A DNA stretch of 42,901 bases from Candidatus Bathyarchaeota archaeon (GTDB lineage: Archaea > Thermoproteota > Bathyarchaeia > Bathyarchaeales > Bathycorpusculaceae). Under the pieces are notes generated by a model. The model was given only the letters and a program-made list of their open reading frames with translations, was not told the origin of the DNA and did not search any database. Numbering within the stretch: the stretch's first letter is position 1; each line of letters starts with the position of its first letter. Of this stretch, positions 17,336 through 42,901 are shown one piece after another. The DNA lies in the NCBI GenBank assembly GCA_018396705.1, contig JAGTQZ010000005.1, positions 1 to 42,901 on the forward strand, in the 5' to 3' direction. The translations under genes and the position numbers were made by a program.

Positions 17336-19177
17336 TTATAAAGAGAGTAAGTTGAGTTCACGCTTTTTCTCTTCAGTGGGTATCCCGTCCTTGTTCCATC
17401 CTCTGAGCTTGTAGTAGTCATCCAGCATCTTGTTTAGCATTTCACGAGTTACAATTTTGCCCTTCGAGGGGCCATCTGGATGCGGTTGCTCCATTAAACG
17501 TTTGGGAAGAGCATCATCCCTCCTTGTTATTCCCTCCCTAACGTTGAACATCCTCGTCAGGTTGAGTATTCTTTCTCCGACCATTATGAATCGTTTTCCA
17601 TCCATATTCATTCCAGTGACGGCGTTTAGTATTTCAGCGGAATACTCGGGAAGCCATGGAACAAAATGCGTCCAGAATATACAGTGAATCAATGTGTCGT
17701 TTGCAGCGTTTAACTCCTCGGTTTCTTTGACGCTTTTAGCTTTGTTTTCTATGCTAAACCTGTCCAGCACACCACCTATTTCCAGACCAAGGGTTGCCGA
17801 GTGGGTGTGGCAAGCCCCCCTATCACCTATCGACAACGATAAAGCGTGTCCCCAGAAAGCTCTAGGATCCCACGCTGGACATTCTAAACCTTTCACGTGA
17901 GATGCATAGTACTCTGCCTCTTTGCCTAGTTTTTCAGCCATTCTTTTTGAGCCCTCAGCCAGTATATCTCCGAGACCAGTTCGTTCTCCAACGCTTTTAA
18001 CTAAATTGATTAAGGCTTCTCCGCTTCCAAAACCAATTTTAAGTTTTCCAAGGTTTTCGGCTTTCAATATTCCTTTTTCACAAAGCATCATAGCAAGGGA
18101 TATAACAGAGCCGGTTGATATAGTATCCATCCCGTATTGATCACACAAGCACGCAGCATAGGCGACCGTTTCGAGGCTGGATACACTGCAATTTGCGCCT
18201 AACAAGCATATTGATTCGAACTCGGGGCCGTCAAGTTTAGTTCCGGCATATGGGCCGCTCTTGATTTCACATATTTTACGGCAGCCTATAGTGCAACCGA
18301 AACAAGACGCTCTTTTAACGACAAAGTTCTCTTTCATGTATTCTCCGCTTAGGCTGTCAGCTCCCTCAAAGACGCCAGTAGTGTAGCATTTAACAGCCCA
18401 GCCTCCAAGGGCATTTGCAACGCCTACGAAGCCTGGTGTTCCAAAGTTTGGCAAAACCTCCGCTGTTGCAGGATTTTTCTTAATCATATCCTTAATGTTC
18501 TTGTAGGCTTCCTCCAGTTTTTCAGGGTTAACCACGGATGGTTTAGACGTTCCACTTACGGCTATTGCCTTCAACCTTTTTGAGCCAAGAACTGCTCCGG
18601 CACCACCTCTTCCAGCATCTCTTCCCTCATCATGTATAACTGAGGCGAACCTTACAAGTTTCTCACCGGCGGGCCCTATACGCGCTACACTTGCCTCTTT
18701 CTCGCCTATCTCCTCCTTAACCATAACCTCTGTTTCGTCTGTCATCTTTCCCCAAAGATGTTCAGCCTTTCTGATTTCAATTTCGCCGTCATGTACCCAT
18801 AGAAAGACTGGTTTCTCTGACCTACCCTCTATTATAATTGCGTCGTATCCTGAAAATTTCAGTCTGGCACCGAAAAACCCACCAGCGTAAGTGTCTAAGA
18901 ACAGTGATGTCAAGGGCGACTTTGTTATCACAACATGCCTCCCTGCAAATCCAGACGCTGTAGTCCCTGTCAGAGGACCCGTTGCGAAAATCACTTTATT
19001 GGATGGATCAAAAGGGTCAATCTTAGGCTCCACGGAATTGTAGAGAAAGTATGCGTATCCCTTGCCTCCAATAAACATGTCCACGAAGCTTTTCTTCAGC
19101 TCTTCCACAACAACCTTTTGCCGAGACAAATCCACCCTTAAGATCTTACCCATATATCCGCCATACTGGATAGTCAT
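17336..19177 (-). CDS. Aldehyde:ferredoxin oxidoreductase family tungstoenzyme (AOR 1)
   Basis: The protein begins with the AOR N-terminal domain (YGGYMGKILRVDLSRQKV, then GYAYFLYNSVEPKIDPF and FATGPLTGT). The [4Fe-4S]-binding cysteines are in RASCFGCTIGC (C292, C295, C299 from the ATG), with a further cysteine in ANDTLIHCIFW. The C-terminal PSKGKIVTREMLNKMLDDYY is typical. Members bind W- or Mo-bis-pterin and oxidise aldehydes, or reduce acids, with ferredoxin. I chose the ATG at 19177 (AAGGG seven bases upstream) over the TTG two codons earlier. It is the last gene of the 16-kb minus-strand island; its substrate may be an aldehyde or acid linked to aromatic breakdown. Confidence 0.9.
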   Translation of the reverse strand: MTIQYGGYMGKILRVDLSRQKVVVEELKKSFVDMFIGGKGYAYFLYNSVEPKIDPFDPSNKVIFATGPLTGTTASGFAGRHVVITKSPLTSLFLDTYAGGFFGARLKFSGYDAIIIEGRSEKPVFLWVHDGEIEIRKAEHLWGKMTDETEVMVKEEIGEKEASVARIGPAGEKLVRFASVIHDEGRDAGRGGAGAVLGSKRLKAIAVSGTSKPSVVNPEKLEEAYKNIKDMIKKNPATAEVLPNFGTPGFVGVANALGGWAVKCYTTGVFEGADSLSGEYMKENFVVKRASCFGCTIGCRKICEIKSGPYAGTKLDGPEFESICLLGANCSVSSLETVAYAACLCDQYGMDTISTGSVISLAMMLCEKGILKAENLGKLKIGFGSGEALINLVKSVGERTGLGDILAEGSKRMAEKLGKEAEYYASHVKGLECPAWDPRAFWGHALSLSIGDRGACHTHSATLGLEIGGVLDRFSIENKAKSVKETEELNAANDTLIHCIFWTHFVPWLPEYSAEILNAVTGMNMDGKRFIMVGERILNLTRMFNVREGITRRDDALPKRLMEQPHPDGPSKGKIVTREMLNKMLDDYYKLRGWNKDGIPTEEKKRELNLLSL

Positions 19178-19318
19178 AATCAACCCTTCCCGCTTTCAGA
19201 GATAGAACAAGTTTAGAGTATATACAGCTTATATGTTTTGCCTTAAGTCACCATGGAAATAAAAGCAAATTCTACTCTCTGCTACGTCACAAGAAAAAAG
19301 AATGAGAAAGTAACGTAT

Positions 19319-20155: not shown

Positions 20156-20233
20156 ATTTTATCACCTTTTAGTGTTATAGGCAGTTAACGGATTTAAGAT
20201 TTATCGTACTAACAATTCCGTAATCTGTTTGTG

Positions 20234-22457: not shown

Positions 22458-23231
22458 CTACTTGCGAAGTACAACCTTATAAGGATCTAAACTTCTTAAT
22501 ATTGCTAACTCTTTATCTGTCGGTTCCTGTGTGGTTTCAACCTTATCGGGGATTTGTATGGGGAAACTACTATTTTCTTGTACATCTTTAACACTTACGT
22601 TGGGATGTACTGATATCAATTTCATTTTCTTGGTTTCTTTGTCAAACCCGTAGATTCCCAGCTGTGTGACAACTCTCCATGGTCCGGTATTGCGGGGTAA
22701 TCCTACCTTTTCCCTTGCACCCGGACCAGTGAGGTACCCTGGTGTTGTTAGGAAATCAAGTTTTCTTACAAAACGTTGTTTGTCTTGTTTCATCAATACT
22801 ATCGTTTTCCAGCATAGAGAGCCAAAGTCGTTTGCTCCGCCGCTTCCTGGAAGCCTAACTTTGGGCTTTTCATAGGGTCCGATGACGGTTGTGTTTATGT
22901 TTCCATACATATCTATTTGAGCAGCCCCGAGGAAAGCGTATTCACCATAGCCGGCCTGAATAAAACACATAGTGTAGTCCATACTGGCTGCCATAATAGC
23001 TTTATGAGTGGTCATCGAATCACCTACGGAGAGAGGTATTGTTGGGGGTTTATCTGGACACATACCTCCAGCTTCGTAAATGATAGCTAATTTTGGAGCG
23101 TGGGTGCATTTGGCAAGAAGTGCAGCAAGTATTGGCATGCCTGTACCGGTGAAAACTGTTTTGCCATCTTCTAAGAGTCTTGAAGCTGATACTATCATCA
23201 TTTCGGTTAATGTATATTTTGGCTTTGACAT
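22458..23231 (-). CDS. CoA transferase family I, subunit B
   Basis: The sequence resembles the beta subunit of glutaconate CoA-transferase: YTLTEMMIVSASRLLEDG, TGMPILAALLAKCTHAP, and IYEAGGMCPD, whose E53 matches the catalytic glutamate that carries the CoA thioester. GSGGANDF and LTTPGYLTGPGAR follow. The ATG at 23231 is preceded by GGAGGGTG and lies 16 bp after the A-subunit stop, so the pair is co-translated. The enzyme moves CoA between a short-chain or dicarboxylic acyl-CoA and a free acid. In this island, activation of acetoacetate or of a ring-fission acid is plausible. Confidence 0.87.
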   Translation of the reverse strand: MSKPKYTLTEMMIVSASRLLEDGKTVFTGTGMPILAALLAKCTHAPKLAIIYEAGGMCPDKPPTIPLSVGDSMTTHKAIMAASMDYTMCFIQAGYGEYAFLGAAQIDMYGNINTTVIGPYEKPKVRLPGSGGANDFGSLCWKTIVLMKQDKQRFVRKLDFLTTPGYLTGPGAREKVGLPRNTGPWRVVTQLGIYGFDKETKKMKLISVHPNVSVKDVQENSSFPIQIPDKVETTQEPTDKELAILRSLDPYKVVLRK

Positions 23232-23247
23232 CGCATTCACCCTCCGT

Positions 23248-24261
23248 TCAAGATGTAACCCATGGATAAACGAATTTTGCTCTTCCTTGTTCAAGCTTCT
23301 TGAGGTAATTCAGCTTCTTTATACCTCCAACAAGCTCAAGGTACTGATCAAAATCAGAAACACCGTAAACATATTTATCAAAGTATTCTTTTGTTCCCTC
23401 TTCTGTTCGTGTCATTTTTAAGTATTCAGCGATGTGTTCTTCGTCAAAGTAGTAGCGGTTTGGCATATTGCATGGATGGCAACCAAAAGGTGCTTCAACA
23501 ACTGCATCTACGTAGAAGTATGGTATACAAGTTCGCCATGGTTCCTCCCTAATTTTTTCATGCGGGATTATTTCCTCAGTGGTTATTATTAGTCTTTTAG
23601 CGGCTCTTGCAAGTTCAAAATCCTCTACCAGTATGCCATCTATTTGACAGTTGCCATATTCATCGCATCGATGAACGTGTATTATCGCTACGTCCGGAAA
23701 GCATGCGGGAATGAGGCATATAGGTCTACCAGTGAAAGGATCCTTAACAATTTTTGCTGAACTATGCTTGAATGTGTCGGTACCCATCATTATATAAGCT
23801 GGAATCCAAGGTAATCCTGAAGCTGCAGCTTTAAACCTCCATTGAAGTGCAGCGTTGCTCCATTCTGCAGCAACCTTAACTCTACCAGTTTCAACAGCTC
23901 GTCTAGAAGCCGGTGACAAGCCACGCATTTCGTGTCCAAAGGAATAGCCAGCTTCTACTTTACTTACGCACCCAGCTGCAATAAGACAGTCAAGGTCATG
24001 CACTGACGTTTTTCCTGCAACTATTAAATTCCTCTTTCTTTGCCTTATGATTTCGTATATTGCCACCATTGAAACTCGTACGTGACCAAAACCACCTGAT
24101 GCAATGTAACTACCGTCCTGCACGAACTTTGATATTGCTTCACGAATATCCATAACCTTGCTTTCCATCCTAGAACTTTTATTCGCTCTAACCCACGCAC
24201 GATGCTCCTCGGGATCAACCCAACCCAAAAGCTCAGCCTTGCCTTCTTCGATAACTTCCAT
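23248..24261 (-). CDS. CoA transferase family I, subunit A
   Basis: This is the partner of the B subunit. It shows the alpha-subunit fold signature (SKFVQDGSYIASGGFGHVRV, YEIIRQRKRNLIVAGKTS), then FPDVAIIHVHRCDEYGNCQI and KRLIITTEEII, which match glutaconate CoA-transferase alpha. Its length of about 337 residues is slightly above the usual 300-320 because of a short N-terminal arm (MEVIEEGKAELLGWVDPEEH). I chose the ATG at 24261, with CGGGGAT upstream, over an in-frame GTG at 24288. A TATA-like element lies about 45-55 bp upstream, so this gene probably begins a transcript. Confidence 0.86.
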   Translation of the reverse strand: MEVIEEGKAELLGWVDPEEHRAWVRANKSSRMESKVMDIREAISKFVQDGSYIASGGFGHVRVSMVAIYEIIRQRKRNLIVAGKTSVHDLDCLIAAGCVSKVEAGYSFGHEMRGLSPASRRAVETGRVKVAAEWSNAALQWRFKAAASGLPWIPAYIMMGTDTFKHSSAKIVKDPFTGRPICLIPACFPDVAIIHVHRCDEYGNCQIDGILVEDFELARAAKRLIITTEEIIPHEKIREEPWRTCIPYFYVDAVVEAPFGCHPCNMPNRYYFDEEHIAEYLKMTRTEEGTKEYFDKYVYGVSDFDQYLELVGGIKKLNYLKKLEQGRAKFVYPWVTS

Positions 24262-24303
24262 ATGAATCCCCGTGCTCAGAAAGGACACACTGGATGGTTA
24301 TGA

Positions 24304-24421: not shown

Positions 24422-26401
24422 TTAAATTTCTTTTTGAAGATCTGGAAGTATTTTCTCAAAATAGGTTAGCGCCTCCGGATTAGCTATAGCGTCTTTATTG
24501 AAGACAGGTCTGCCGTTTATGATGTTTGAAACTGCTATTTCGACTTTTTTCATGTTATATGTGTACGGGATATCTGGTGCTTCTATAATTATCGCTGGAA
24601 CATGTCTTGGAGAGGCCTCTTCACGCAGGGCGTTCTTGATTTTGCTCTTCAAATCTTCTGTTAACGTGTAACCAGGCTTAAGTTTTACAAAAAGAATAAT
24701 TCGTTGATCACCCTTCCAGTTTTGTCCCACAGCCAAACTGTCAGCTATTTCAGGTAGCCTCTCAACAACGTTGTATATTTCAGCTGTTCCAATACGCACG
24801 CCTGATGGTTTTAAAACGGCGTCGGATCTCCCTAAAATTGTAATTCCCCTGGTATCACTGTGAAATATAACCCAGTCACCGTGTCTCCAAACGTTTTTTC
24901 CAGGATAAAACGTGAAGTATGCCTCTAAATATTTCTCGTTATTTGGATCATTCCAGAAGTAAAGGGGCATCGAAGGAGCAGGAGCCTCGCATACAAGCTC
25001 ACCTTCTTTGTCCCAAATGGGTTCACCTCTTGCGTCGTAGGCTTTTATTTTCATTCCAAGGCCAGGAGCTTGCAGCTCGCCTGCGTAGACTGGAAGGATG
25101 GGACACCCGATAGCAAAGCACCCATTAATATCTGTGCCGCCTGATATTGAGTTGAAATGTAGATCCTTTTTGACGTTTTCATAGATCCATTCGAAACCAT
25201 CCGCTGAGAGGGGTGAGCCCGTTTGGGATATTTCACGGAGACATGCAAGGTTAAACTCTTTCCCAGGCTCAGCGTTTACTCCTCTCAAATAATTGATGTA
25301 ACTTGCGCTACATCCAAAGATGGATATTTCCTCGTCTTCAATAATTTTCCACAATGTCCTCCAATCAGGATAATTGGGGTTACCATCATAGAGAATTATT
25401 GTTGCTCCAGTTGCTAATCCGCTCATAAGCCAATTCCACATCATCCAACTAGGCGATGTTATATACGTTATCCGATCAGTACGCTTCAAATCACTATGTA
25501 TAATTAGCTCTTTCAAATGATTTACAAGTACTCCGCCGCAACTTTGCACCATGCATTTGGGTTTACCAGTCGTCCCTGAAGAAAACATTATGTAGAGAGG
25601 ATGATTAGATGAAACCTGTCTAAATGAAGCTTTTTCCGTTGATGATAAAAAATCCTCATAAAGAACCGCGTTAGGAATCAGGCTTATGTCCGGCTTGTCC
25701 TGCAGATATGGAACCACTATAATTTTTTTGATCGATGGAACATCATTAACAACTTTCTTAACATGATCCAAAGTGTTAAAGCTTTTCCCCTTATAGAGGT
25801 AGCCATCCACTGTGAAAAGAACTTTGGGTTCTATTTGACCAAGACGGTCTATTACCGCACTAGTTCCTAATTCTATGCCACATGAAGCCCAAATGGCGCC
25901 AACACCAGCAGCGGCAAGCATAGCAATGCTCGTTTCAACTATATTTGGCATATATGCACAAACACGATCTCCCGGAGTGATTCCTATTTCGCGTAGCGAG
26001 TTTGCTAACCGTGCAACAAGCCTATAGAGCTCCCTATAAGTAATCCTAACACGCTCACCCATTTCATTTTTTGATATGAATGCTATATGATTATCAGTAT
26101 ACCTAAGAAGGTTCTCTGCAAAATTTAATTTCGCTCCCACGAACCAATTTGCACCAGGAAACTTCCTTAAATCATCAACTAAATTAGTGTAGGGTTCAGA
26201 ATATTTTACTCCAACAAACTCCCAAACGGCCGCCCAAAAACTGTGTAAGTTTTCTATTGACCAGTCATAAAGATGGAAGTAGGAGCCTTCTGCATGCGGG
26301 TCTATTTCAAGACCATACTTTTCATCAACAAACTTGATAAACTGGGCAATATTTGACTTGTCCACGTGTTCACTAGAAGGTTGCCATAATAGTTTTCCCA
26401 A
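24422..26401 (-). CDS. Acetoacetyl-CoA synthetase (acetoacetate-CoA ligase)
   Basis: A 659-residue ANL-superfamily enzyme of AACS type. The start GKLLWQPSSEHVDKSNIAQF and the LNFAENLLR block are typical. The phosphate-binding A3 motif is MFSSGTTGKPKCMVQ, with SGGTDINGCFA (A5) and WRHGDWVIF plus ITILGRSD (A7/A8). The MKKVEIAV near the C-terminus holds the adenylation lysine. It makes acetoacetyl-CoA from acetoacetate, ATP and CoA. That is exactly the step needed for the acetoacetate released by the BKACE enzyme three genes upstream, a strong contextual argument for substrate. Other medium beta-keto acids are possible. Confidence 0.88.
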   Translation of the reverse strand: MGKLLWQPSSEHVDKSNIAQFIKFVDEKYGLEIDPHAEGSYFHLYDWSIENLHSFWAAVWEFVGVKYSEPYTNLVDDLRKFPGANWFVGAKLNFAENLLRYTDNHIAFISKNEMGERVRITYRELYRLVARLANSLREIGITPGDRVCAYMPNIVETSIAMLAAAGVGAIWASCGIELGTSAVIDRLGQIEPKVLFTVDGYLYKGKSFNTLDHVKKVVNDVPSIKKIIVVPYLQDKPDISLIPNAVLYEDFLSSTEKASFRQVSSNHPLYIMFSSGTTGKPKCMVQSCGGVLVNHLKELIIHSDLKRTDRITYITSPSWMMWNWLMSGLATGATIILYDGNPNYPDWRTLWKIIEDEEISIFGCSASYINYLRGVNAEPGKEFNLACLREISQTGSPLSADGFEWIYENVKKDLHFNSISGGTDINGCFAIGCPILPVYAGELQAPGLGMKIKAYDARGEPIWDKEGELVCEAPAPSMPLYFWNDPNNEKYLEAYFTFYPGKNVWRHGDWVIFHSDTRGITILGRSDAVLKPSGVRIGTAEIYNVVERLPEIADSLAVGQNWKGDQRIILFVKLKPGYTLTEDLKSKIKNALREEASPRHVPAIIIEAPDIPYTYNMKKVEIAVSNIINGRPVFNKDAIANPEALTYFEKILPDLQKEI

Positions 26402-26478: not shown

Positions 26479-27321
26479 TTAAGCCCATGTTGTTACTCCA
26501 CCGTCTATGAAAAGCACCTGCCCCGTTACGAAATTTGACGCATCAGAAGCAAAATACACTACCGCACCTATTAGGTCGTCAGGATATGCCCATCGGCCCA
26601 TTCTGATTCTAGAAAGCATTGACTTAGAAAGTTCTGGGTCACGCATTATATGTGCAGTGAGTGGGGTTGCCACAACTGTCGGTGCTATACAATTGACTTG
26701 AATATTGAAAGGAGCCCATTCACAAGCTAATTGTCTGGTAATCATTATTACAGCAGCCTTGCTAGTGCAGTAAGCGATGTAGTTTCTCGGCATGCCGAAG
26801 ACCCCTCTGACCGATGAAATATTAATTATTTTTCCCCTTCTCTGCCTTATCATAACTTTGCCGACTTCTTGGCATGTTAAAAACACCCCATTAACGTTAA
26901 CGTCCATGACTTTTTTCCAATCCTCAAATGGATAATCTTCAGCTGGTTTTGGAATATTCATTCCAGCATAGGTTACCAGTATATCTATTCTTCCGAAATT
27001 GTCCACCACTTGTTTGACCATATTTTTAACTTCCTCAGGCTTTGTTACATCACAACTGATTGCCATGGATTTTCGTCCGAGTTTCTCGATTTCACTCTTA
27101 ACTTTTTCAAGTTTTGTAAGATCCCTAGCCACTACCACCACATTTGCGCCAAAATCTGCGAGACCTAAGGCCGTTGGCCTCCCTAAACCCCCGCTTCCAC
27201 CCGTAACTATGGCAACTTTATCTTTCAAGTCAAAGAGCTTTTGGAAACCCATTGAACCGCTCTTTATGCGCTCTTCCAATACACGTTCATATTCTTCAGA
27301 TGACGTGAATGAAGCATTCAT
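26479..27321 (-). CDS. SDR-family oxidoreductase, candidate phloroglucinol reductase
   Basis: A classical SDR with cofactor motif TGGSGGLG (40-47), NISS (167-170), catalytic YCTSK (Y184, K188) and C-terminal FIDGG. A 30-residue N-terminal extension precedes the Rossmann fold. The NNAG motif reads TYAG here. VVVVARDLTKLE after strand 2 has an arginine (R66), as in NADP-dependent members. The ATG at 27321 overlaps the cupin stop codon (ATGA), so the two are translationally coupled; an upstream start at 27351 is less likely. Bacterial phloroglucinol reductases that make dihydrophloroglucinol are NADPH-dependent SDR-type enzymes, so this is the best candidate here. The family is certain; the substrate is inference. 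Confidence 0.88.
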   Translation of the reverse strand: MNASFTSSEEYERVLEERIKSGSMGFQKLFDLKDKVAIVTGGSGGLGRPTALGLADFGANVVVVARDLTKLEKVKSEIEKLGRKSMAISCDVTKPEEVKNMVKQVVDNFGRIDILVTYAGMNIPKPAEDYPFEDWKKVMDVNVNGVFLTCQEVGKVMIRQRRGKIINISSVRGVFGMPRNYIAYCTSKAAVIMITRQLACEWAPFNIQVNCIAPTVVATPLTAHIMRDPELSKSMLSRIRMGRWAYPDDLIGAVVYFASDASNFVTGQVLFIDGGVTTWA

Positions 27322-30917: not shown

Positions 30918-30918
30918 C

Positions 30919-31794: not shown

Positions 31795-31795
31795 T

Positions 31796-32509: not shown

Positions 32510-32513
32510 CGCC

Positions 32514-33236
32514 TTAGATTACCCATTTTTCCCCAAGATATGCCTCTATTACCCTTTGGTTACTTGTGACTTCCTCAAAGGAGCCTTCAGCAATTTTCTC
32601 TCCATAGTTTAAAACTATCACGCGTTCCACAATGCCTCGCAAAGCCTTCATGATATGTTCAACCCAAAATACGGTAACACCGAAATCATCTCTGATCCGT
32701 TTAATTAAGTCTTTGGCATCATTGATCTCTTTTGGGTTTAACCCGCTTAATGGTTCATCAAGCAACAGGATTTTAGGTTTTGTAGCAAGAGCTCGCGCTA
32801 TCTCCAGAAATTTACGTTCACAAATGTTAAGGTTACGTGCAGGTACATCTTTCTTATGATCCAGTCCAACAAACCTTAAATACTCGAGACTTTCACTGCG
32901 ACTTTTACTTAATCCATTTCCAGCCCCATATAACGCGCCGACCATCACATTTTCGAGAACGCTCATGTTTAGAAATGGTCTCACAAGTTGATAAGTCCTC
33001 GCGATACCCATTCGACAAATTTTATGCGACGGGAGGCCAGTAATATCCTCACCCATAAACTTTATTTTGCCTGAATCCGGTTTATAAACGCCTGAAATGA
33101 GATTAAATAGGGTTGTTTTTCCAGAACCGTTAGGTCCAATTAAGCCGACAACTTCCTTTTCATTGACCTTAAAACTTACGTCTTTAATGGCCTCCAAAGC
33201 TCCGAAACGCTTTATCAGACCAGTCCCTTCAAGCAT
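32514..33236 (-). CDS. livG: LIV-type ABC transporter ATPase (LivG-like)
   Basis: A 240-residue ABC ATPase: Walker A GPNGSGKT, MGIARTYQLVRPFLNMSVLE (LivG-type Q-loop), Walker B ILLLDEPLSGLNP and H-loop FWVEH. The signature motif is degenerate (LNICERKFLEIARAL rather than LSGGQ). It is the first gene of the 16-kb minus-strand island and faces a divergent promoter region shared with the MoaD-like gene. It powers import with LivF, LivH, LivM and the binding protein at 33747. Confidence 0.92.
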   Translation of the reverse strand: MLEGTGLIKRFGALEAIKDVSFKVNEKEVVGLIGPNGSGKTTLFNLISGVYKPDSGKIKFMGEDITGLPSHKICRMGIARTYQLVRPFLNMSVLENVMVGALYGAGNGLSKSRSESLEYLRFVGLDHKKDVPARNLNICERKFLEIARALATKPKILLLDEPLSGLNPKEINDAKDLIKRIRDDFGVTVFWVEHIMKALRGIVERVIVLNYGEKIAEGSFEEVTSNQRVIEAYLGEKWVI

Positions 33237-33389: not shown

Positions 33390-33677
33390 TTGATAACAAT
33401 CAAGATTCGAGCTCTTTTTCATCTAAAAGACATGCTTGGTGCAAGAGAGCTAACGCTAAAACTGAAGGAAGGTGCAACAATTAAAGATCTAATCCAAATT
33501 CTAATCGAGCGGTATGGAGATAAAGTTGAAAGCGTCTTAATAGGACCCAACGGGAAACTAAATCCAATAATAACAATTCTGGTTAATGGCCTACAAATAG
33601 ACTTTTTCAATGGAATTAACACAACACTTGCAGATGGCGACACAGTTTCATTTATTCCTCCAGTAGGTGGAGGATAA
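33390..33677 (+). CDS. MoaD/ThiS-family sulfur-carrier protein
   Basis: A 95-residue ubiquitin-fold protein: ALFHLKDMLGARELTLKLKE at the N-terminus, ILVNGLQIDFFNG and GDTVSFIPPVGGG at the C-terminus. The terminal diglycine, to be thiocarboxylated, is the sulfur donor in pterin dithiolene synthesis. The TTG start is supported by TTGAGGA upstream. A carrier in this island fits demand for tungsto/molybdopterin by two AOR proteins and the transhydroxylase. Archaeal MoaD paralogues of this type often neighbour AOR genes. Confidence 0.86.
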   Translation: MITIKIRALFHLKDMLGARELTLKLKEGATIKDLIQILIERYGDKVESVLIGPNGKLNPIITILVNGLQIDFFNGINTTLADGDTVSFIPPVGGG

Positions 33678-33746
33678 TAGTCAGTTTTGTTGCTAAAAAC
33701 TTAAAAAGAACAAGCGTTTTAAGACTCTATGCGAGGGATTGAAGTT

Positions 33747-35084
33747 ATGAAAAGGACAGCAGCTGCTATGACAAAAGTTCAAGCGACAATCGTCATCGTT
33801 GTAGTTGTGGTGGCTGCTGTTGTTATTGGGGCATACTACTTTTTGATGCAACCTTCCGGACCAGAATATATCAAAATTGGCTGGCCAGCACCTATTACAG
33901 GAGTGCTCGCTGGTTTTGCAGAAACCACACCTTGGGTCGTTCAGCAGGTTGAGGATTATGTTAATAAAGAGTTAGGCGGTGTGCACCTATCGGAGTATAA
34001 CAGAAAAGTGTTCATAAAAGTGATTCTGAGAGATACCAAAAGCGACAGTGACCAAGCAGCAACCATAGCGGCCGAACTAATAACAAAAGAGAACATTGAT
34101 ATAATGTTGGCTTTGTACTCTCCAGCTATGACCAATCCTATAAGCGCACAATGTGAAAAATACGGAGTACCTTGCATAGTTTCTCAAACGATAATAATAT
34201 CATGGTTGATGGGCGGACCCTACGAATGGTCATACTGTATAGGTCTGGCTGAACCAGACTATGCGGTGCTATTCTTTGACTTATTTGATTCAGCAGGAGA
34301 GCAAGTAAACAAAATTGTAGCCATGATCAATGCAGATGACCCTGATGGCAGAGGCTATTCAGAATCAATAAATAGGGTTGCAGCCGCACGCGGGTACACA
34401 ATTGTGGACGCAGGACTGGTGCCATATGGTACATCTGATTATTCGTCATATATTTATACATGGAAGAGCGCTAACGCACAAATTCTAACGGGTAACATGC
34501 GCTCTGTGGAGTTCGCGGCTCTCTGGAGACAATGTAACGAGTTGGGCTATAAGCCAAAAATCGTCGCGATGTCGAGGGCTTTACTATTTCCGTCATGGGT
34601 TGAGGCAATCGGCGGCGATCTTCCTAATGGACTAATAGGGTACACATGGTGGTCAGGATATCATCCTTACAGATCATCTATTACAGGTCAGACCACAAGC
34701 CAGTTGATCGAGGCTTGGGAATCTTACAGTAAAAAACAGTGGACACCAGTTTTAGGGCTTACTCACTGCGTGCTTGAAGTGGCGATAGACGCTGTTAAGA
34801 GGGCTGGAAGCCTTGACAAAACAAGAATAAAAGAAGCCTTGGCTAACATAAACTTGAATACAATCGCTGGACCTATCAATTTCAAGGCTCCGTTAACACC
34901 TCAACAACAAGCACGTTACCAGGCGGTCTCAAGTCTTATACAATATAAAGACCATTATGTGGTTGTGAAACCGGTGGCTATCCAGTGGGTAAAAGGGACA
35001 AAGTGGCCTTGGGAAATGCAAATAATTTACAACTGGGAGAGCCCAGAAATACCTGAAACTGCAGAAATGTTTCTCTTAAGCTAA
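33747..35084 (+). CDS. LIV-type ABC transporter substrate-binding protein, membrane-anchored
   Basis: A Peripla_BP_6-type receptor. Residues near the N-terminus (TIVIVVVVVAAVVIGAYYFL) form a single membrane anchor or signal, after which KIGWPAPITGVLAGFAETTP begins the receptor domain. DTKSDSDQAATIAAELITKE and later FAALWRQCNELGYKPKIVAM are family blocks. ATG 33747 has GAGGGAT upstream, and is preferred to ATG 33729. It faces away from the other four transporter genes across a shared divergent region. The ligand is likely an aromatic or hydroxylated acid by context. Confidence 0.88.
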   Translation: MKRTAAAMTKVQATIVIVVVVVAAVVIGAYYFLMQPSGPEYIKIGWPAPITGVLAGFAETTPWVVQQVEDYVNKELGGVHLSEYNRKVFIKVILRDTKSDSDQAATIAAELITKENIDIMLALYSPAMTNPISAQCEKYGVPCIVSQTIIISWLMGGPYEWSYCIGLAEPDYAVLFFDLFDSAGEQVNKIVAMINADDPDGRGYSESINRVAAARGYTIVDAGLVPYGTSDYSSYIYTWKSANAQILTGNMRSVEFAALWRQCNELGYKPKIVAMSRALLFPSWVEAIGGDLPNGLIGYTWWSGYHPYRSSITGQTTSQLIEAWESYSKKQWTPVLGLTHCVLEVAIDAVKRAGSLDKTRIKEALANINLNTIAGPINFKAPLTPQQQARYQAVSSLIQYKDHYVVVKPVAIQWVKGTKWPWEMQIIYNWESPEIPETAEMFLLS

Positions 35085-35902: not shown

Positions 35903-36949
35903 ATGATCATTAATAAGGTGTTACGTGTGGAAATAGTAGACTTTGAAGCCCACTTCTACACGAAAGAATATGTTAAAACTCTACTGAAAAATGAGGACCA
36001 CCCAAAATATAAAAAAGATGAAACAACGAGCACCTACTGGCTGTGGTACACTCCCCACGTGCAAGAGCCGCATACCGAACAACTGTTAGAAAGACTTCTC
36101 GACGTGAATGAAAAACGTATCAAAGATATGCATGATGCTGGAGTAAAAATGCAAGTTCTCAGCCTCTCTGCTCCAGGATGTGAACAATTTGAAGCTTCAA
36201 TAGGAAAAAAGCTTGCTAGAAAAGTCAATGACGAACTTGCCTCAGTTATTGAAAGAAAACCAGATAGATTTGTCGGATTAGCTGCACTTGCCCCACAAGA
36301 TCCAGGTGAGGCTGCTGATGAACTTGAGCGCGCTGTGAAAGAGTTAGGTCTTAGAGGGTGGAAAACTCACTCTAACATCCGTGGAGCCTACATTGATGAT
36401 AAGAAATACTGGGTTATATTTGAAAAGGCAGAAAAGTTAGGGGTTCCAATATTTCTACATCCTACCGTTCCAACAATAGATGTGCTCAGTGATACATATG
36501 GATATGCGTTAGCTGGACCAGCTTTCGGTTTCACCTTTGATACAGCACTATGCATGATGCGTTTAATCCTGAGTGGAATCTTTGATAGGTACCCGAATCT
36601 AAAGATTGTGCTAGGCCACTTTGGCGAAACCATGCCTTTCCTACTAAACCGTCTAGACTTTCCAATTGTAAGACCATGGGTTGCTAAAAACGTAGATATT
36701 AAAATCTCAAAAAAGCCAAGTGATTACTTTAAGAGCAATGTGTACGTGGCTACAAGCGGCGAATTCCATAATCCTGCAATTATGTGTACCCTTCAGGTAA
36801 TGGGCTGTGATAGAGTGTTGTTCGCTTCAGATTATCCTTATGAAGATTCAATGAAAGCTGTTGAACGTGTTAAAGCATTACCATTACCAGAAGAAGAAAA
36901 AAGTAAGATATGCCACTTGAATGCGAAAACCTTACTAAATATACGTTAA
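35903..36949 (+). CDS. Amidohydrolase-family hydroxybenzoate decarboxylase (gamma-resorcylate/2,3-DHB decarboxylase-like)
   Basis: A 348-residue metal-dependent TIM barrel. The first metal ligands are E15-A-H17 (VDFEAHF), the E-x-H pattern of 2,6- and 2,3-dihydroxybenzoate decarboxylases, not the H-x-H of hydrolases and ACMSD. H186 (FLHPTVP), H239 (LGHFGE) and D310 (FASDYPYE) complete the site. Blocks VLSLSAPGCEQF, RFVGLAALAPQDP and LILSGIFDRYPNLKIVLGH are typical. Members remove CO2 non-oxidatively from hydroxybenzoates. In this island it could make pyrogallol from a trihydroxybenzoate for the transhydroxylase. A TATA-like aataaattta about 25-35 bp upstream suggests a leaderless or short-leader transcript; GTG 35927 is an alternative start. 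Confidence 0.85.
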   Translation: MIINKVLRVEIVDFEAHFYTKEYVKTLLKNEDHPKYKKDETTSTYWLWYTPHVQEPHTEQLLERLLDVNEKRIKDMHDAGVKMQVLSLSAPGCEQFEASIGKKLARKVNDELASVIERKPDRFVGLAALAPQDPGEAADELERAVKELGLRGWKTHSNIRGAYIDDKKYWVIFEKAEKLGVPIFLHPTVPTIDVLSDTYGYALAGPAFGFTFDTALCMMRLILSGIFDRYPNLKIVLGHFGETMPFLLNRLDFPIVRPWVAKNVDIKISKKPSDYFKSNVYVATSGEFHNPAIMCTLQVMGCDRVLFASDYPYEDSMKAVERVKALPLPEEEKSKICHLNAKTLLNIR

Positions 36950-37028
36950 CATGGGTGGGAAAACCTGTAAGGAAAATTTTTATTAGAAGATGAAAACAAT
37001 GGGATGTTAAAAATGGTGATCATTGAAA

Positions 37029-38876
37029 ATGGCTCACGGGTACGCTGGCAAAATACTTTGTGTGGACTTGTCAACTAGAGAAGTGTATACAAAAAATCTT
37101 GATGCAGATTATGTTTACCCAGTAATTGGCGGGGCAGGACTAGGCATAAAAATCCTGTACGATGAAGTTGATCCAAAAGAGGACCCATTATCTCCGAAAA
37201 ACAAGTTAATATTTTCTGTCGGGCCGCTAGTGGGCTCTGGGACACCATGCACCAGCAGAATGGCAGTTGTGGCAAAGTCTCCGTTGACTGGTACCGTTGG
37301 GATGTCGCTCTCCGGCGGGTATTTTCCGGCGGAGCTTAAATTTGCAGGATACGATGCAGTGGTGATTTCTGGGAAAGCTGATACCCCAGTCTATATTTGG
37401 ATAGAAGACGACAAAGTAACCATTAGCGATGCATCTGGCCTGTGGGGACTCACAACCACAGACACTCAAATCGTACTGAAAGAAAAACTTAACAGACCAG
37501 ATGCAAAGATCGCGTGTATAGGACCTGCTGGTGAGAAACTTGTTCGATATGCTTGTATAATAAACGAGAGGAGAGCTGCTGGAAGAAAGGGCTTAGGAGC
37601 TGTGATGGGTTCAAAGAACCTGAAAGCTATAGCAGTTAAAGGAACAAATAAAGTGAAACCAGCTGATGAAGGCAGATTTAGAAAAGCCATCAAGAAAATG
37701 CATGAATTAATGAAACAGAGCCCAGTACTTTATCCATCCTTTTCAAAAATGGGCACCCCAATGACGGTGGAAGTTACTGCAGAATTAGGAATTTTACCAG
37801 CAAAAAACTGGACAGCCACAGGCATTTTTGCTCCGGTAGAAACTCTAGGCGGAGAAACGCAATCAACCTATACAATCACTAGAGTTGGTTGTTATGGATG
37901 CCCAGTGAGATGCGGACAAGTAAAACTAGTCAAGCAAGGCCCGTTTGCCGGGTTTATGACGGAAGGCCCAGAGTTTGAGTCAACCTATAGTCTAGGAACT
38001 ATGGTTGGTGTTAACTACTTTCCAGCGGTAATAGCAGCTGACAGATTATGTGATGAATACGGATTAGATACTATTTCAACAGGGGCTACTGTGGCATTTG
38101 CTATGGAACTCGTGGAAAAAGGCATTCTATCGCGAGATGAGGTAGACGGCTTAGATTTAACCTTCGGCAATTACGAAGCCTTCTTGAAGATGATTAGAAA
38201 GATAGCGTTCAGAGAAGGTTTCGGAAGCGTATTGGCAGAAGGAGTAAAACAAGCAGCAAAAATAATCGGCAGAGGCTCTGAGAGATACGCGTTACACATC
38301 AAAGGCATGGAACTCCCAGGATATGATGTTAGAGGGGCAAAAGCTCACGGATTAAGTTACGCTACCGCATACACCGGAGCAGATCACAATAGAGGCTACG
38401 CGATACAGGAAATTTTCAATGTGCCAGTTCCGTACAAGGTTGACAGATTAGCCATAGAAGGTAAAGGCAGGCTATGTAAATGGAATCAGGACGTCAGAAC
38501 AGCAGTTTGTGATTGTATGCCTCTTTGCGTGTTCGTATTTGACATGGGATTAGCGGCGAACGCCCTAGAGCTTACCGCTGAGCTTTATGAGGCGTTAACG
38601 GGTCTAGAGATAAAGGCTGAAGAAGTGCAAAAAGCGGGAGAAAGAGTGAATAATATTGCAAGGTTATTCAACGTTAAGGCTGGATTCACAAGGAAAGATG
38701 ACGTCTTACCAGCGAGACTCATGGAAGAGGGAATACCGGGAGGACCATCAAAAGGTCAAATGGTCAGTATTGAAGATTTAAACAAAATGTTAGATGAGTA
38801 CTACGATGCTAGAGGGTGGGACAAAGAAACAGGGATACCGACAAAAGAAAAGCTATCTGAACTGGGAATAAAATGA
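37029..38876 (+). CDS. Aldehyde:ferredoxin oxidoreductase family tungstoenzyme (AOR 2)
   Basis: The second AOR-family protein of the window: GYAGKILCVDLSTREVYTKN and FSVGPLVGSGTPCTSRMAVV in the N-terminal domain, Fe-S cysteines in VGCYGCPVRCGQ (C288, C291, C295), a later CDCMPLC, and the C-terminal GGPSKGQMVSIEDLNKMLDE. ATG 37029 has GGTGAT at good spacing; a TTG two codons earlier is less likely. It differs throughout from AOR 1, so they are diverged paralogues rather than a recent duplication. It lies between the decarboxylase and the PhlG-like gene. It may oxidise or reduce an aromatic aldehyde/acid, or supply reduced ferredoxin. Confidence 0.9.
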   Translation: MAHGYAGKILCVDLSTREVYTKNLDADYVYPVIGGAGLGIKILYDEVDPKEDPLSPKNKLIFSVGPLVGSGTPCTSRMAVVAKSPLTGTVGMSLSGGYFPAELKFAGYDAVVISGKADTPVYIWIEDDKVTISDASGLWGLTTTDTQIVLKEKLNRPDAKIACIGPAGEKLVRYACIINERRAAGRKGLGAVMGSKNLKAIAVKGTNKVKPADEGRFRKAIKKMHELMKQSPVLYPSFSKMGTPMTVEVTAELGILPAKNWTATGIFAPVETLGGETQSTYTITRVGCYGCPVRCGQVKLVKQGPFAGFMTEGPEFESTYSLGTMVGVNYFPAVIAADRLCDEYGLDTISTGATVAFAMELVEKGILSRDEVDGLDLTFGNYEAFLKMIRKIAFREGFGSVLAEGVKQAAKIIGRGSERYALHIKGMELPGYDVRGAKAHGLSYATAYTGADHNRGYAIQEIFNVPVPYKVDRLAIEGKGRLCKWNQDVRTAVCDCMPLCVFVFDMGLAANALELTAELYEALTGLEIKAEEVQKAGERVNNIARLFNVKAGFTRKDDVLPARLMEEGIPGGPSKGQMVSIEDLNKMLDEYYDARGWDKETGIPTKEKLSELGIK

Positions 38877-38943: not shown

Positions 38944-39573
38944 TCATTTATTGGTTGTAATAGCATATAAATATGGAAGAATTGTGGCAAGGTTTCTCAT
39001 TTCCTCTACACAATGTTGGAAAAGATTTTTGGCCATCTCGTAGTTCGCGTAGTTCGGATTTAGCCAGAACCTGCTTCGCATTTCGCACCCGACATCTCTG
39101 TCCCTAACAAAGTGAGTCATACGGCCAATTTCAACCTCAATTTTTTCATTTCTTAAAAACAAGTGCGCACAAATAGCGGTTGCCCTCGCCTCCTCAAATC
39201 TTGACGTGTCGTAAAATTTTGATGGTTCTTGGAAGTGGATTCTTAATTTTGCAGCTGGTGGTTTGCCGCCTAACGTCTCTTCAACTATGTGGCTTGCCCC
39301 AATGTAATGCCCAGGTTTCCATTGGTCGTCCCAAGCGCCATAAAGATGATCTATTGGATGCCAAAGTTTGTAGATTTGCGTGTGTTCCTTTGGAGATAAC
39401 CCATACGCAAACCACCACTCTATCATTTCCCTCTTGCAATAGGGCATCCTTGTAAGTACCGCCACAAGATAATAGCCATTGGACAGACGCATGTAACCGC
39501 TCTCAAACGGCAAGTAGCCAGGTTCAAGGAGACGGTTAATTTGCTCGAACGGCAACTCTAAATCTTTTAGCAT
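38944..39573 (-). CDS. PhlG-like (DAPG hydrolase family) C-C hydrolase, candidate dihydrophloroglucinol cyclohydrolase
   Basis: A 209-residue protein with the DAPG-hydrolase pattern: MPYCKREMIEWWFAYG, YKLWHPIDHLYGAW (H72, H76), HYIGASHIVEE (E98, E99), MTHFVRDRDVGCEMRSRFWL (H154, E164) and LFQHCVEEMRNLA. PhlG is a zinc enzyme that cleaves an acyl C-C bond of 2,4-diacetylphloroglucinol, a beta-diketone-type hydrolysis. Dihydrophloroglucinol is also a cyclic 1,3-diketone, so this protein is the best candidate for its ring-opening hydrolase. The protein is shorter than PhlG (about 296 aa), mostly at the N-terminus. GGGGGAG lies upstream of the ATG. It is divergent from the transhydroxylase gene, so the two may share a promoter region. 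Confidence 0.83.
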   Translation of the reverse strand: MLKDLELPFEQINRLLEPGYLPFESGYMRLSNGYYLVAVLTRMPYCKREMIEWWFAYGLSPKEHTQIYKLWHPIDHLYGAWDDQWKPGHYIGASHIVEETLGGKPPAAKLRIHFQEPSKFYDTSRFEEARATAICAHLFLRNEKIEVEIGRMTHFVRDRDVGCEMRSRFWLNPNYANYEMAKNLFQHCVEEMRNLATILPYLYAITTNK

Positions 39574-39813: not shown

Positions 39814-42438
39814 ATGGAGGAAAAGCGCTTGCACGAACCCGAGAGGGAATTCGGTAAAAAACTTGAGGATGGAACAAATATCTTTACTAGTTGTACAGTC
39901 GGTGGGCCTGTTTTTGTATATGTTAAAGATGGGAAAATTAAGCGAGTCACTCCTATAATATTTGGGCCGGATGATGCTGAGTCGTGGACCATTGAGGCTA
40001 GAGGTAGGAGTTTTTCTCCTCCAAGGAAAGCTTTGCTCGCTCCGTATGTTTACACCGTCAGGTCTAGGGTTTACTCTCCGGAAAGAGCGCTTTATCCGCT
40101 TAAGAGGGTAGATTTTGATCCAGACGGTGATAGACATCCAGAAAACAGGGGCAAATCGGGGTATGAGCGTATTAGTTGGGAGGAAGCCCTAACAATAGTC
40201 ACGAACGAGATGCAACGTATAAAACGGAAATATGGTGCCGCAGCCATTGCAGCTACAACTTCATCCCATCATGAATGGGGAAACATTGGATATCGACACA
40301 GCGCCTTCTATAGATTCTTCAATCTTCTAGGTTTTACGTATGTTGAACATAATCCGGATAGTTGGGAAGGATGGCACTGGGGTGCAATGCATCATTGGGG
40401 TTTCTATTGGAGGTTAGGTGTGCCGGAGCAGTACGACTTGTTGGAAGATGCATTGAAAAATTGTGAAATGATTGTTTTTTGGTCCTCCGATCCGGACTCA
40501 ACGCGCGCGATAGGCTATCAGGGATACGAATCTGCTCCATGGCGGCAGTGGTTAAGAGATTTAGGAGTGAAAATGGTTTTCATAGATCCATATTACAACT
40601 ATACTGCAGTATTGTTTGCTGATAAATGGCTTGCTCCCCGACCGGGAACCGATACTGCTCTTGCGCTGGCAATAGCATATGTCTGGATCACCGAGGAGAG
40701 GTATGACAAAGAGTATGTGGCAACTCACACGTATGGCTTCGAGGAGTTTAAAAAATACGTTCTGGGAGAAGAAGATCAAACTCCTAAAACTCCAAAATGG
40801 GCTGAGGAATTAACAGGTATACCCGCAAGAGAAATAAGAGCTTTGGCGAGAGAGTGGGCCTCAAAAAGGACGATGTTGGCTGCCGGAGGGTTAGGTGGAT
40901 GGGGAGGTGCCTGCAGAGCAGCTTATGGGCATGAATGGGCCAGAATGATGGTTCTTTTGGCTGCAATGCAAGGGCTGGGAAAACCTGGAGTTAACATATG
41001 GGGAACCACAAAGGGAGCCCCATTCAATGCTGGCTTTTATTTCCCAGGATACGCAGAAGGTGGAATTTGTGGAGATCCTGACAAAACAGCTGCGACCTTT
41101 GAGTTGCTTGGAAGAGGAATGGTTAAGAAACCCACTGTATGTCGCATATTCCAGCACATACCCCGATTGAAACTCCCGGAAGCAATATTAAATCCCCCTG
41201 TCGAATGGAAAGCCAGAGGATTTAGCGGTGAATCGATAGAAAGCCAGTTTAGATCCTTTACATATCCCACGAAAGGTTATAATGAAGTGAAAATGTTATA
41301 CAGGTACGGTGGATCTTACATTGGCACCATGACGGAGACAAATAAATGGGCTCAAATGTACAGGAGCTCAAAATTGGAATTTGTTGTAAACCAGACAATG
41401 TTCGTTAATGAACCAGAAACAAAATTTGCAGATATCATATTACCCGCTTGTACACAATTTGAGCGTTGGGATATAGGTGAGTGGGCTAGTTGTTCAGGAT
41501 ACATACCACATTCTTCATGCGGGACAAATCATAGAGTTATTGTTCTTCAGATGAAATGCATAGAACCGCTGGGTGAATCTAAATCTGACTACCAAATATT
41601 TGCTGAAATAGCCAAAAGATTAGGTTTCTATGATGAATTCACCGAAGGAGGCATGACTGAGCTCGACTGGGTTAGAAGAATGTTTGATGTCAGCGACCTG
41701 CCAAAATATATAACATGGGAGGAATTCAAAAGAAAAGGTTACTTTGTCGTTCCACTTCCTAAGCCATATAGGCCTACCCCTGCATTACGCTGGTTCTATG
41801 AAGGCAGACCAAAGGATACACCTGATTGGGGTCCAGCTCCACGGGATAGCCCAATTAACCGGGTTGGCTTGCCGACACCAACTGGCAAAATAGAATTTGT
41901 TTCACAAACCCTCATGCGTTTTGACCCAAATGATAAAGAGAGACCACCACTGCCACGCTTTATTCCATCATGGGAGGGGCATCTAAGCGAACTTACCAAA
42001 AAATACCCATTGCAAATGGTTACTCCTCACCCTCGATATTCCTATCACACGCACCATGACGGTAAGGGAACATGGATAAACGAAATTCCAGAACATAGGG
42101 TGCTTAAAGAAGATGGACACTATTATTGGATTATTCGCATCAATCCTTTGGACGCTGAAGCTCGTGGAATTAAGGACGGTGACATAGTTAGGGTATACAA
42201 TGATAGAGGATCCGTCCTCTGCGTGGCAAAAGTAACACATAGAGTCAGACCGGGTGTTGTCCACGGATGGGAGTCATGCAACATCTATGAACCAATCGGT
42301 GAACCCGGTGATCCAAACTCGGTGGACCGTGGGGGCTGTCTAAACATACTAACGCCTTCAAGATATCAATCTAAAAATGCTTGCGGTATGGCGCCTAACT
42401 CTTGCCTAGTGGAAGTGGAGAAGTGGAGGGGACAGTAA
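39814..42438 (+). CDS. athL: Pyrogallol:phloroglucinol transhydroxylase-like molybdopterin oxidoreductase, large subunit
   Basis: An 874-residue DMSO-reductase-family protein almost the same length as the Pelobacter acidigallici enzyme (875). Segments such as GGPVFVYVKDGKI, SSHHEWGNIGYRHS, HNPDSWEGWHWG, GGLGGWGGACRA, FYFPGYAEGG and CSGYIP match it closely. The Mo-ligand serine is S183. Pocket residues equivalent to its H144, Y152, R153, D174, W176, W354, Y404, C557 and Y560 appear as H152, Y160, R161, D182, W184, W363, Y413, C560 and Y563. There is no N-terminal CxxCxxxC Fe-S motif and no Tat signal, as in that enzyme, so it is cytoplasmic. It would move a hydroxyl of pyrogallol to give phloroglucinol using a tetrahydroxybenzene co-substrate. 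The small subunit starts immediately after the stop. I matched residues from memory of the known enzyme; the substrate is inferred. Confidence 0.88.
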   Translation: MEEKRLHEPEREFGKKLEDGTNIFTSCTVGGPVFVYVKDGKIKRVTPIIFGPDDAESWTIEARGRSFSPPRKALLAPYVYTVRSRVYSPERALYPLKRVDFDPDGDRHPENRGKSGYERISWEEALTIVTNEMQRIKRKYGAAAIAATTSSHHEWGNIGYRHSAFYRFFNLLGFTYVEHNPDSWEGWHWGAMHHWGFYWRLGVPEQYDLLEDALKNCEMIVFWSSDPDSTRAIGYQGYESAPWRQWLRDLGVKMVFIDPYYNYTAVLFADKWLAPRPGTDTALALAIAYVWITEERYDKEYVATHTYGFEEFKKYVLGEEDQTPKTPKWAEELTGIPAREIRALAREWASKRTMLAAGGLGGWGGACRAAYGHEWARMMVLLAAMQGLGKPGVNIWGTTKGAPFNAGFYFPGYAEGGICGDPDKTAATFELLGRGMVKKPTVCRIFQHIPRLKLPEAILNPPVEWKARGFSGESIESQFRSFTYPTKGYNEVKMLYRYGGSYIGTMTETNKWAQMYRSSKLEFVVNQTMFVNEPETKFADIILPACTQFERWDIGEWASCSGYIPHSSCGTNHRVIVLQMKCIEPLGESKSDYQIFAEIAKRLGFYDEFTEGGMTELDWVRRMFDVSDLPKYITWEEFKRKGYFVVPLPKPYRPTPALRWFYEGRPKDTPDWGPAPRDSPINRVGLPTPTGKIEFVSQTLMRFDPNDKERPPLPRFIPSWEGHLSELTKKYPLQMVTPHPRYSYHTHHDGKGTWINEIPEHRVLKEDGHYYWIIRINPLDAEARGIKDGDIVRVYNDRGSVLCVAKVTHRVRPGVVHGWESCNIYEPIGEPGDPNSVDRGGCLNILTPSRYQSKNACGMAPNSCLVEVEKWRGQ

Positions 42439-42901
42439 ATGGCGAATTGGGCAATGGTGGTTGACATAACGAAATGCAACGGATGTTACAACTGTTTCAT
42501 TGCATGTAAAGATGAATTCTGGGATAACGAATATCCTCCATATTCGTCAGCGCAACCTAGGCATGGACATTTCTGGATGCAGGTTTTCACAAGGGAGAGG
42601 GGCCAATTCCCCCATGTGCGCGTGGCATATATGCCCGTACCCTGCATGCACTGCGACAACGCGCCATGTATTGACAGGGCAAAAAACGGTGCAATTTACA
42701 AAAGGCTAGACGGGATCATAATAATTGACCCAGCAAAATCGTTCGGTCAGAAACAGTTAGTCGAAGCTTGCCCGTATGGCGTTATTTTCTGGAATGAGGA
42801 GAGAAGAATTCCGCAGAAATGTACTTTTTGCGCCCACCTCCTTGACAAAGGCTGGAAAGAGCCGAGATGTGTGCAGGCATGTCCAACTGGAGCACTGATA
42901 T
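42439..42901 (+). CDS. athS: Transhydroxylase small subunit, [4Fe-4S] ferredoxin-like, 3'-truncated by window edge
   Basis: The ATG directly follows the large-subunit stop (TAAATG), a coupled pair. The 154 residues present include cysteines in ferredoxin groupings: C13, C16, C19, C23; C69, C72, C77; C111; C128, C131; C144, C148. These twelve fit three [4Fe-4S] clusters, as in transhydroxylase and other DMSO-reductase electron-transfer subunits. Stretches CMHCDNAPC, GAIYKRLDGIIIIDP, CPYGVIFWNEE and QKCTFCAHLLD closely resemble the Pelobacter beta subunit. Whether the C-terminal Ig-like domain of that subunit is present cannot be seen. Confidence 0.88.
   Translation, partial: MANWAMVVDITKCNGCYNCFIACKDEFWDNEYPPYSSAQPRHGHFWMQVFTRERGQFPHVRVAYMPVPCMHCDNAPCIDRAKNGAIYKRLDGIIIIDPAKSFGQKQLVEACPYGVIFWNEERRIPQKCTFCAHLLDKGWKEPRCVQACPTGALI

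Follow-up and report, generated by a model that had tools for sequence, protein, structure and literature searches.

A candidate archaeal pathway for the anaerobic breakdown of trihydroxybenzenes in a Bathyarchaeon, with a cyclase on a second contig as predicted ring-opening enzyme

The stretch of DNA analysed here, referred to as the window, has a length of 42,901 nucleotides and is the entire contig C5 (JAGTQZ010000005.1) of a Candidatus Bathyarchaeota genome (G000; 1.71 Mb, 9 contigs, 96.7% complete). Its right part contains an island with a pyrogallol transhydroxylase (TH) and a run of genes resembling those of bacterial phloroglucinol degradation. Together with a ring-opening gene on contig C4 of the same genome, this island is probably involved in the anaerobic breakdown of the plant phenols pyrogallol and phloroglucinol. 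The central genes of the island are the following, SDR standing for short-chain dehydrogenase/reductase:

22458-23294, minus strand: CoA-transferase subunit B, divergent (PF01144, 107.9 bits)
23248-24288, minus strand: CoA-transferase subunit A, divergent (PF01144, 143.9 bits)
24422-26401, minus strand: acetoacetate-CoA ligase (TIGR01217, 824.8 bits, cut-off 520.9)
26479-27351, minus strand: SDR, proposed to be PGR-like (PF13561, 217 bits)
27318-27674, minus strand: small cupin of the module (PF07883, 46.7 bits)
27725-28756, minus strand: BKACE, proposed triacetate acetoacetate-lyase, TAL-like (PF05853, 312.8 bits)
28838-29821, minus strand: 3-hydroxyacyl-CoA dehydrogenase-like protein (3HCDH), proposed (S)-3-hydroxy-5-oxohexanoate dehydrogenase, TfD-like
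38944-39573, minus strand: short DAPG/phloretin-hydrolase-like (PhlG-like) protein (PF18089, 160.7 bits, cut-off 22.7)
39814-42438, plus strand: TH large subunit, AthL type (PF21423, 85.5 bits; PF00384)
42439-42901, plus strand, cut by the contig end: TH Fe-S subunit, AthS type (Fer4_11, 91.5 bits)

An earlier note on this DNA had proposed a trihydroxybenzene pathway for the island. Each gene it named exists as an open reading frame (ORF) of the family given, the last one being cut by the contig end; the conserved cupin at 27318-27674 had been missed.

Against the crystallised pyrogallol hydroxytransferase (PDB 4v4c_A), the TH large subunit reaches 1130.6 bits, while the next PDB sequence stands at 285.8 bits. 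The large subunit shares 59% identity with the P. acidigallici enzyme and is identical to it at 9 of 9 checked active-site positions, chosen after the 2004 structure, which makes it a convincing pyrogallol transhydroxylase. A quick tree, built from 98 rows picked by score, places both enzymes in the same 49-row clade (SH-aLRT 97). Within this clade, the group of the window TH branches as sister to the remaining 46 rows, so that a simple recent transfer from one of the sampled bacteria is unsupported. Two further TH genes on C4 are 84% and 67% identical to the window TH, and a divergent fourth paralogue is 41% identical and keeps 4 of the 9 checked positions. In the same tree, the TH copy of locus L010 has as its sister a group made up largely of Dehalococcoidia. 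Pyrogallol transhydroxylases have been reported from sediment Chloroflexi (PMC3971608).

The window ends in 77 bases (42825-42901) that recur exactly at the end of contig C7 (G000:C7:54255-54331). This exact overlap, presumably a trace left by the assembler at a branch point, shows where the window continues. The ORF of the Fe-S subunit resumes on C7 (L009:19473-19931, minus strand), and the next gene past it, on the opposite strand, is ribonuclease Z.

The anaerobic phloroglucinol pathway of Clostridium scatologenes consists of PGR, DPGC, TfD and TAL, and its ring hydrolase DPGC is a member of the cyclase family in which Trp20 and Tyr22 replace two isatin hydrolase residues (Zhou et al. 2023, PMC10470551). 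A profile scan of the G000 assembly finds no PF04199 cyclase in the window and two on C4, a contig of 455 kb that has a thermosome gene within about 10 kb of each of the two cyclase loci. The first cyclase lies about 0.8 kb from a TH copy with a Rid-family gene between them, and the second is directly downstream of the Fe-S subunit of the divergent TH copy. Both contain W-P-Y, the Trp20/Tyr22 signature of DPGC. This motif is present in 22 and absent in 12 of the 34 cluster or archaeal cyclases that have the column (two further rows are gapped there), and it is found in none of six generic cyclases. From these features a C4 cyclase fits the ring-opening step. The earlier note had seen a candidate for every step in the one window. 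Since the cyclases reside on C4 and the related operon of a second Bathyarchaeon includes an orthologous cyclase, a candidate for each step is found in the genome and not in the window.

Aligned to hydroxybutyryl-CoA dehydrogenase (6aa8), the window dehydrogenase has lost the CoA contacts Lys56 and Asn221, which are replaced by Ile and Arg, and has kept Ser117 and His138, the pattern expected for TfD. Arg221 is present in all 13 cluster dehydrogenases compared and could bind a free carboxylate. The BKACE gene of the window is the only one in the assembly. It encodes Val where the lysine-pathway enzyme KCE has Glu14, a position at which none of 15 cluster BKACEs has Glu and two have Trp. The small cupin lacks the canonical His metal ligands in an alignment of 20 rows and adjoins the module in bacteria and archaea alike. 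Among the papers listed by a literature search on phloroglucinol and cupins, none is evidently on this cluster, and the text of Zhou et al. (PMC10470551) does not speak of a cupin.

The genomic context in bacteria was assessed for the best 80 of at least 536 confirmed TH candidates, using fetched stretches and blastp cut-offs of our own choice. In these loci, SDR is found in 26, the cupin in 23 (28 by tblastn at 1e-3), the dehydrogenase in 19, the cyclase in 18, BKACE in 15 and livH in 12; 18 loci combine three or more of the five core genes. Thus dehydrogenase, BKACE, cupin, SDR and importer recur beside TH or beside known phloroglucinol genes. In Moorella the order is cupin, SDR, dehydrogenase, cyclase, BKACE, livKGFHM and TH. 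The SDR of Parasporobacterium scores 322 bits against PDB 5g4k and 137 bits against the next different SDR; we take 5g4k to be phloroglucinol reductase, although its PDB name is only 'short chain dehydrogenase/reductase family protein'. E. oxidoreducens, which Zhou et al. name as having the phloroglucinol cluster (PMC10470551), carries BKACE, cyclase, dehydrogenase, SDR and cupin together. The cupin is likewise part of the Parasporobacterium and Moorella clusters, and the BKACEs of all three (L108 for Moorella) read Gly-Ala-Trp at the Glu14 position.

An archaeal counterpart of the operon is found in a second Bathyarchaeon (G170), taken as Candidatus Bathyarchaeota JZ_bin_36.1. On a contig of 8.5 kb it carries one run of cyclase, dehydrogenase, BKACE, cupin, SDR, acetoacetate-CoA ligase, CoA-transferase A and CoA-transferase B, which are 89, 80, 85, 82, 86, 78, 83 and 79% identical to their G000 counterparts, respectively. 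From the dehydrogenase to CoA-transferase B the order is that of the window; the cyclase is added upstream and runs to the contig edge. The four pathway genes, separated in G000 by the location of the cyclase on C4, stand together in this sister operon. Over the eight genes, nonsynonymous differences (pN) amount to 0.06-0.14 and synonymous differences (pS) to 0.73-0.88, the latter near saturation. In a third genome of the class (G067), a single contig carries cupin, ligase, dehydrogenase, SDR and cyclase but lacks BKACE. In a 398-genome sample of the window's phylum, 22 genomes match the cyclase profile at 1e-30 and three exceed 425 bits (G000, G857, G862); in a sample of 392 genomes from the phylum to which the Methanoperedens locus belongs, the profile is matched by 14 at this threshold and two exceed 470 bits (G446 and G399). 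We take G399, which encodes the protein of PDB 3lot, to be Archaeoglobus fulgidus. Cyclase relatives of 75-96% identity occur in seven other archaeal genomes, and the archaeal cyclases fall together in a single group (92/100, not starred).

In G857 the cyclase, SDR, cupin and dehydrogenase have a Liv importer as neighbour, its four subunits sharing 78-83% identity with those of the window; in G862 a PhlG-like gene, cyclase, SDR, cupin and dehydrogenase lie together. No BKACE was detected by tblastn at 1e-8 in the fetched stretches of G862 and G857, the search being confined to these stretches. The blocks of both genomes contain an HMGL-like (DRE-TIM) protein (L198:6818-8053 and L199:5282-6490, respectively), which might replace BKACE. 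TH was not found in G857, G862, G446 or G399 at E 1e-60, in a search without positive control.

A second module is located on C4 (L011:10258-17426), consisting of a divergent TH-like enzyme, its Fe-S subunit, a DPGC-type cyclase and an SDR. This TH-like enzyme lacks several substrate-site residues, and thiolase-like and CoA-transferase III genes are near. Similar sets are present in G170 (L151, L153) and, as far as cyclase and SDR are concerned, in G862 (L198:8046-9679).

Uptake and upstream functions may be provided by further genes of the island, which lie between the dehydrogenase and the PhlG-like gene:

29985-33236, minus strand: branched-chain-type ABC importer, from blastp matches to bacterial liv genes that neighbour TH (LivM 29985-30935; LivH 30919-31863; LivF 31796-32509; LivG 32514-33236)
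33390-33677, plus strand: ThiS/MoaD-like small sulfur carrier (PF02597, 51.6 bits)
33729-35084, plus strand: periplasmic-type substrate-binding protein, LivK-like (PF13458, 140.4 bits)
35903-36949, plus strand: Amidohydro_2 hydroxybenzoate decarboxylase-like protein (216 bits to 5-carboxyvanillate decarboxylase 4icm)
37023-38876, plus strand: aldehyde:ferredoxin oxidoreductase (AOR) family protein (AFOR_C, 450 bits)

The names LivM, LivH, LivF and LivG are putative, given by similarity. The MoaD-like protein of the earlier note is confirmed by its PF02597 match, and a relative of it is found near livK-like, AOR and PhlG-like genes in G265. The decarboxylase stands at family level: it is similar to the 5-carboxyvanillate (LigW)/gamma-resorcylate decarboxylases and remains a candidate. 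The AOR family protein at 37023-38876 has a 60% identical relative beside the PhlG-like gene in G265, and a second gene of this family is located in the island at 17336-19183.

The steps can be arranged into a pathway. The Liv-type importer would bring phenols into the cell, and the decarboxylase and the PhlG-like hydrolase would free trihydroxybenzenes from carboxylated or acylated forms. The molybdenum-dependent TH would convert pyrogallol to phloroglucinol, which the SDR would reduce to dihydrophloroglucinol. The ring of dihydrophloroglucinol would then be opened by the PF04199 cyclase encoded on C4, yielding 3-hydroxy-5-oxohexanoate. This is predicted to be oxidised to triacetate by the 3HCDH-like enzyme, and BKACE would convert triacetate and acetyl-CoA to acetoacetate and acetoacetyl-CoA. 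Acetoacetate-CoA ligase and CoA-transferase would finally activate acetoacetate. We estimate a probability of about 75% that most of an archaeal pathway fermenting trihydroxybenzenes is encoded in the window, with the ring opened by the C4 cyclase. This estimate rests on family membership, on some diagnostic residues and on a gene order conserved in bacteria and other archaea, from which we infer all activities, cofactors, upstream steps and the direction of flux. Judged from sequence, it is a coherent archaeal version of a known pathway, with a patchy distribution. The earlier note's proposal of a TH-linked phloroglucinol module in an archaeon is thereby upheld at the predicted level, as are the roles it gave to dehydrogenase, BKACE, SDR and importer, and gene order supports the module better than that note could show.

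Several observations weigh against this interpretation. The first group concerns distribution. In 43 of the 80 TH loci, none of the five core genes is present in the fetched stretch. Among 256 genomes of the class, TH above 1200 bits is found in three (G000, G170, G178) and a DPGC-type cyclase above 425 bits in four (G000, G163, G067, G170); of the genomes sampled, only G000 and G170 combine TH with the cyclase. The three genus-mates have neither at these thresholds.

The second group concerns the enzymes themselves. PGR carries a TR(S/N) motif for NADPH (Zhou et al., PMC10470551). At this site 5g4k reads Thr-Gly-Arg-Asn and the window SDR, one of three PF13561 genes in G000, reads Ala-Arg-Asp, which keeps the Arg and lacks the motif; the G067 relative has lost even the Arg. 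The tree check suggested in the earlier note has a mixed outcome for the SDR: the window protein joins TH-linked SDRs and 5g4k (97/98), separate from three generic PDB SDRs, but it falls outside the 5g4k branch itself in a tree with few outgroups (the three PDB SDRs and some further SDRs of these loci). Because the motif is missing, we consider that the window SDR may work like PGR and do not claim membership in PGR; with its position outside the 5g4k branch, the assignment of this step rests mainly on context. In the dehydrogenase, Asn188, which Clostridium TfD keeps, is replaced by Val; among the 13 dehydrogenases this position is Val in five (window, G170, G067, G862, G857) and Asn in the other eight. 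The TAL of Clostridium is described as a BKACE with Glu14 replaced by Trp (PMC10470551), and the window BKACE has Val instead. Three TH-type genes plus a divergent copy blur which copy does what. Finally, the LigW/gamma-resorcylate decarboxylase family acts on ortho-hydroxybenzoates. This preference does not fit gallate, and because the family acts next to an ortho hydroxyl, gallate decarboxylation is treated as no more than possible.

The same deviations leave room for an alternative that we consider unlikely, yet the most serious of those weighed: the enzymes could act on another polyhydroxylated ring, such as resorcinol or hydroxyhydroquinone, with the molybdenum subunit being a hydroxylase and not a TH. 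The group of Ser-coordinated enzymes to which TH belongs includes the resorcinol hydroxylase RhL (PMC10100899). Several TH paralogues in G000, one with an altered active site, an SDR off the known PGR branch, and a dehydrogenase and BKACE deviating at diagnostic residues would all be in line with a different substrate. Against this, the window TH keeps every checked position and clusters with the P. acidigallici enzyme, in a tree among whose rows resorcinol hydroxylase is not knowingly included, and the operon corresponds to the phloroglucinol cluster gene for gene.

The earlier note had assigned ring opening to the PhlG-like protein, which now appears very improbable. It belongs to a family of C-C hydrolases acting on phloroglucinol derivatives, scores 68.6 bits against phloretin hydrolase 5xe5, keeps the candidate metal His/Glu positions in the alignment and is encoded next to TH. 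Family members also occur at other places in 8 of 27 TH-bearing genomes, in three cases as short forms of about 50% identity; in one deltaproteobacterium such a short relative adjoins AOR, with LivK-like and MoaD-like genes nearby, and in two other bacteria short relatives stand beside Liv importers. However, the protein comprises only 209 amino acids and reaches 54 bits against the curated NCBIfam PhlG equivalog (cut-off 600). It has no match in the fetched stretches of the 80 TH loci (blastp on ORFs; tblastn at 1e-3) and is absent from 255 of the 256 class genomes, including G170, whose full operon has an orthologous cyclase at its upstream end. In G862 a 61% identical PhlG-like gene adjoins the cyclase and does not substitute for one. 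The characterised ring hydrolase is a cyclase (Zhou et al., PMC10470551). The PhlG-like protein is thus more likely an accessory acyl-phenol C-C hydrolase than the ring opener. That bacterial DNA was mis-binned into an archaeal genome is hardly credible and was rejected: the closest bacterial THs are from Dehalococcoidia and the genus-mates lack TH and cyclase, but the cyclases have thermosome neighbours on a 455-kb contig as well as close archaeal relatives with which they group, and the window contig encodes an ATP-dependent DNA ligase that we read as archaeal.

At the left edge of the island a V4R-domain protein is encoded (15462-16322). V4R domains are known from phenol sensors, and for this reason the protein may be a regulator. 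An RNA fold of the sequence that separates livG from the MoaD-like gene revealed nothing (z -0.20).

Beyond fermentation of trihydroxybenzenes via the C4 cyclase, we tentatively propose a wider scheme, to which we assign somewhat less than even odds. Some Bathyarchaeia could ferment lignin- or tannin-derived trihydroxybenzenes of the gallate or syringate type to acetyl-CoA by an archaeal pyrogallol-phloroglucinol branch that includes the cupin, of which we came across no description, an HMGL-type lyase could take the place of BKACE in G857 and G862, and the second module with TH-like enzyme, cyclase and SDR could serve another phenol. Bathyarchaeia have been tied to lignin use in sediments, and a 2023 study of a lignin-enriched member reports that its genome revealed no known genes for aromatic ring cleavage (PMC10989822). 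G000 and its relatives supply concrete candidates for such ring-cleavage genes elsewhere in the class, together with a testable set of substrates, and offer an idea of how these archaea could use aromatic plant material. In the literature searched, which left most subscription papers aside, we found no report of the pathway in Bathyarchaeia. Our comparison points to the cyclase as ring-opening enzyme. It also shows that the module has close relatives in Bathyarchaeia, in Archaeoglobus and in a further lineage of the phylum to which the window belongs, and it highlights a cupin, as yet uncharacterised, that bacterial and archaeal phloroglucinol clusters have in common.

Compared with single known enzymes, the TH resembles the P. 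acidigallici transhydroxylase in identity (59%), checked positions and adjoining small Fe-S subunit, while G000 has three copies and one divergent paralogue. The PhlG-like protein shares fold family and candidate metal residues with PhlG and phloretin hydrolase (PF18089), but it is short and far below the equivalog cut-off. Similar to C. scatologenes, G000 has an SDR, a PF04199 cyclase with W-x-Y, a 3HCDH-type dehydrogenase without the CoA contacts and a BKACE without Glu14. In contrast to it, G000 is archaeal, its cyclase is on a separate contig, and it additionally contains TH, Liv importer, acetoacetate-CoA ligase, a divergent CoA-transferase and the cupin. Residue differences are the SDR without TR(S/N), Val for Trp in BKACE and Asn188 to Val in the dehydrogenase.

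The earlier note knew of no described archaeal version, but one exists: in Archaeoglobus, a four-gene cluster has been reported from sequence by Zhou et al. 2023 (PMC10470551). A 19-kb Archaeoglobus stretch (L197, of G399) shares with G000 the cyclase (82%), SDR (72%), cupin (72%) and CoA-transferase A (72%); it also contains BKACE (PDB 3lot, 38-39%) and both CoA-transferase subunits. Genes were called with a simple longest-ORF script, and the SDR and cupin of this stretch were recovered only by tblastn. Unlike G000, Archaeoglobus has no TH at E 1e-60 and a different MopB protein in the cluster, and its dehydrogenase is only 34% identical and keeps Asn188. The clusters of Dehalococcoidia (L015), Moorella (L108) and Anaerolineales (L027) differ from G000 in having the cyclase inside the same cluster. 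As in G000, TH is accompanied there by SDR, dehydrogenase and BKACE, and partly also by the cupin, the Liv importer or the acetoacetate-CoA ligase.

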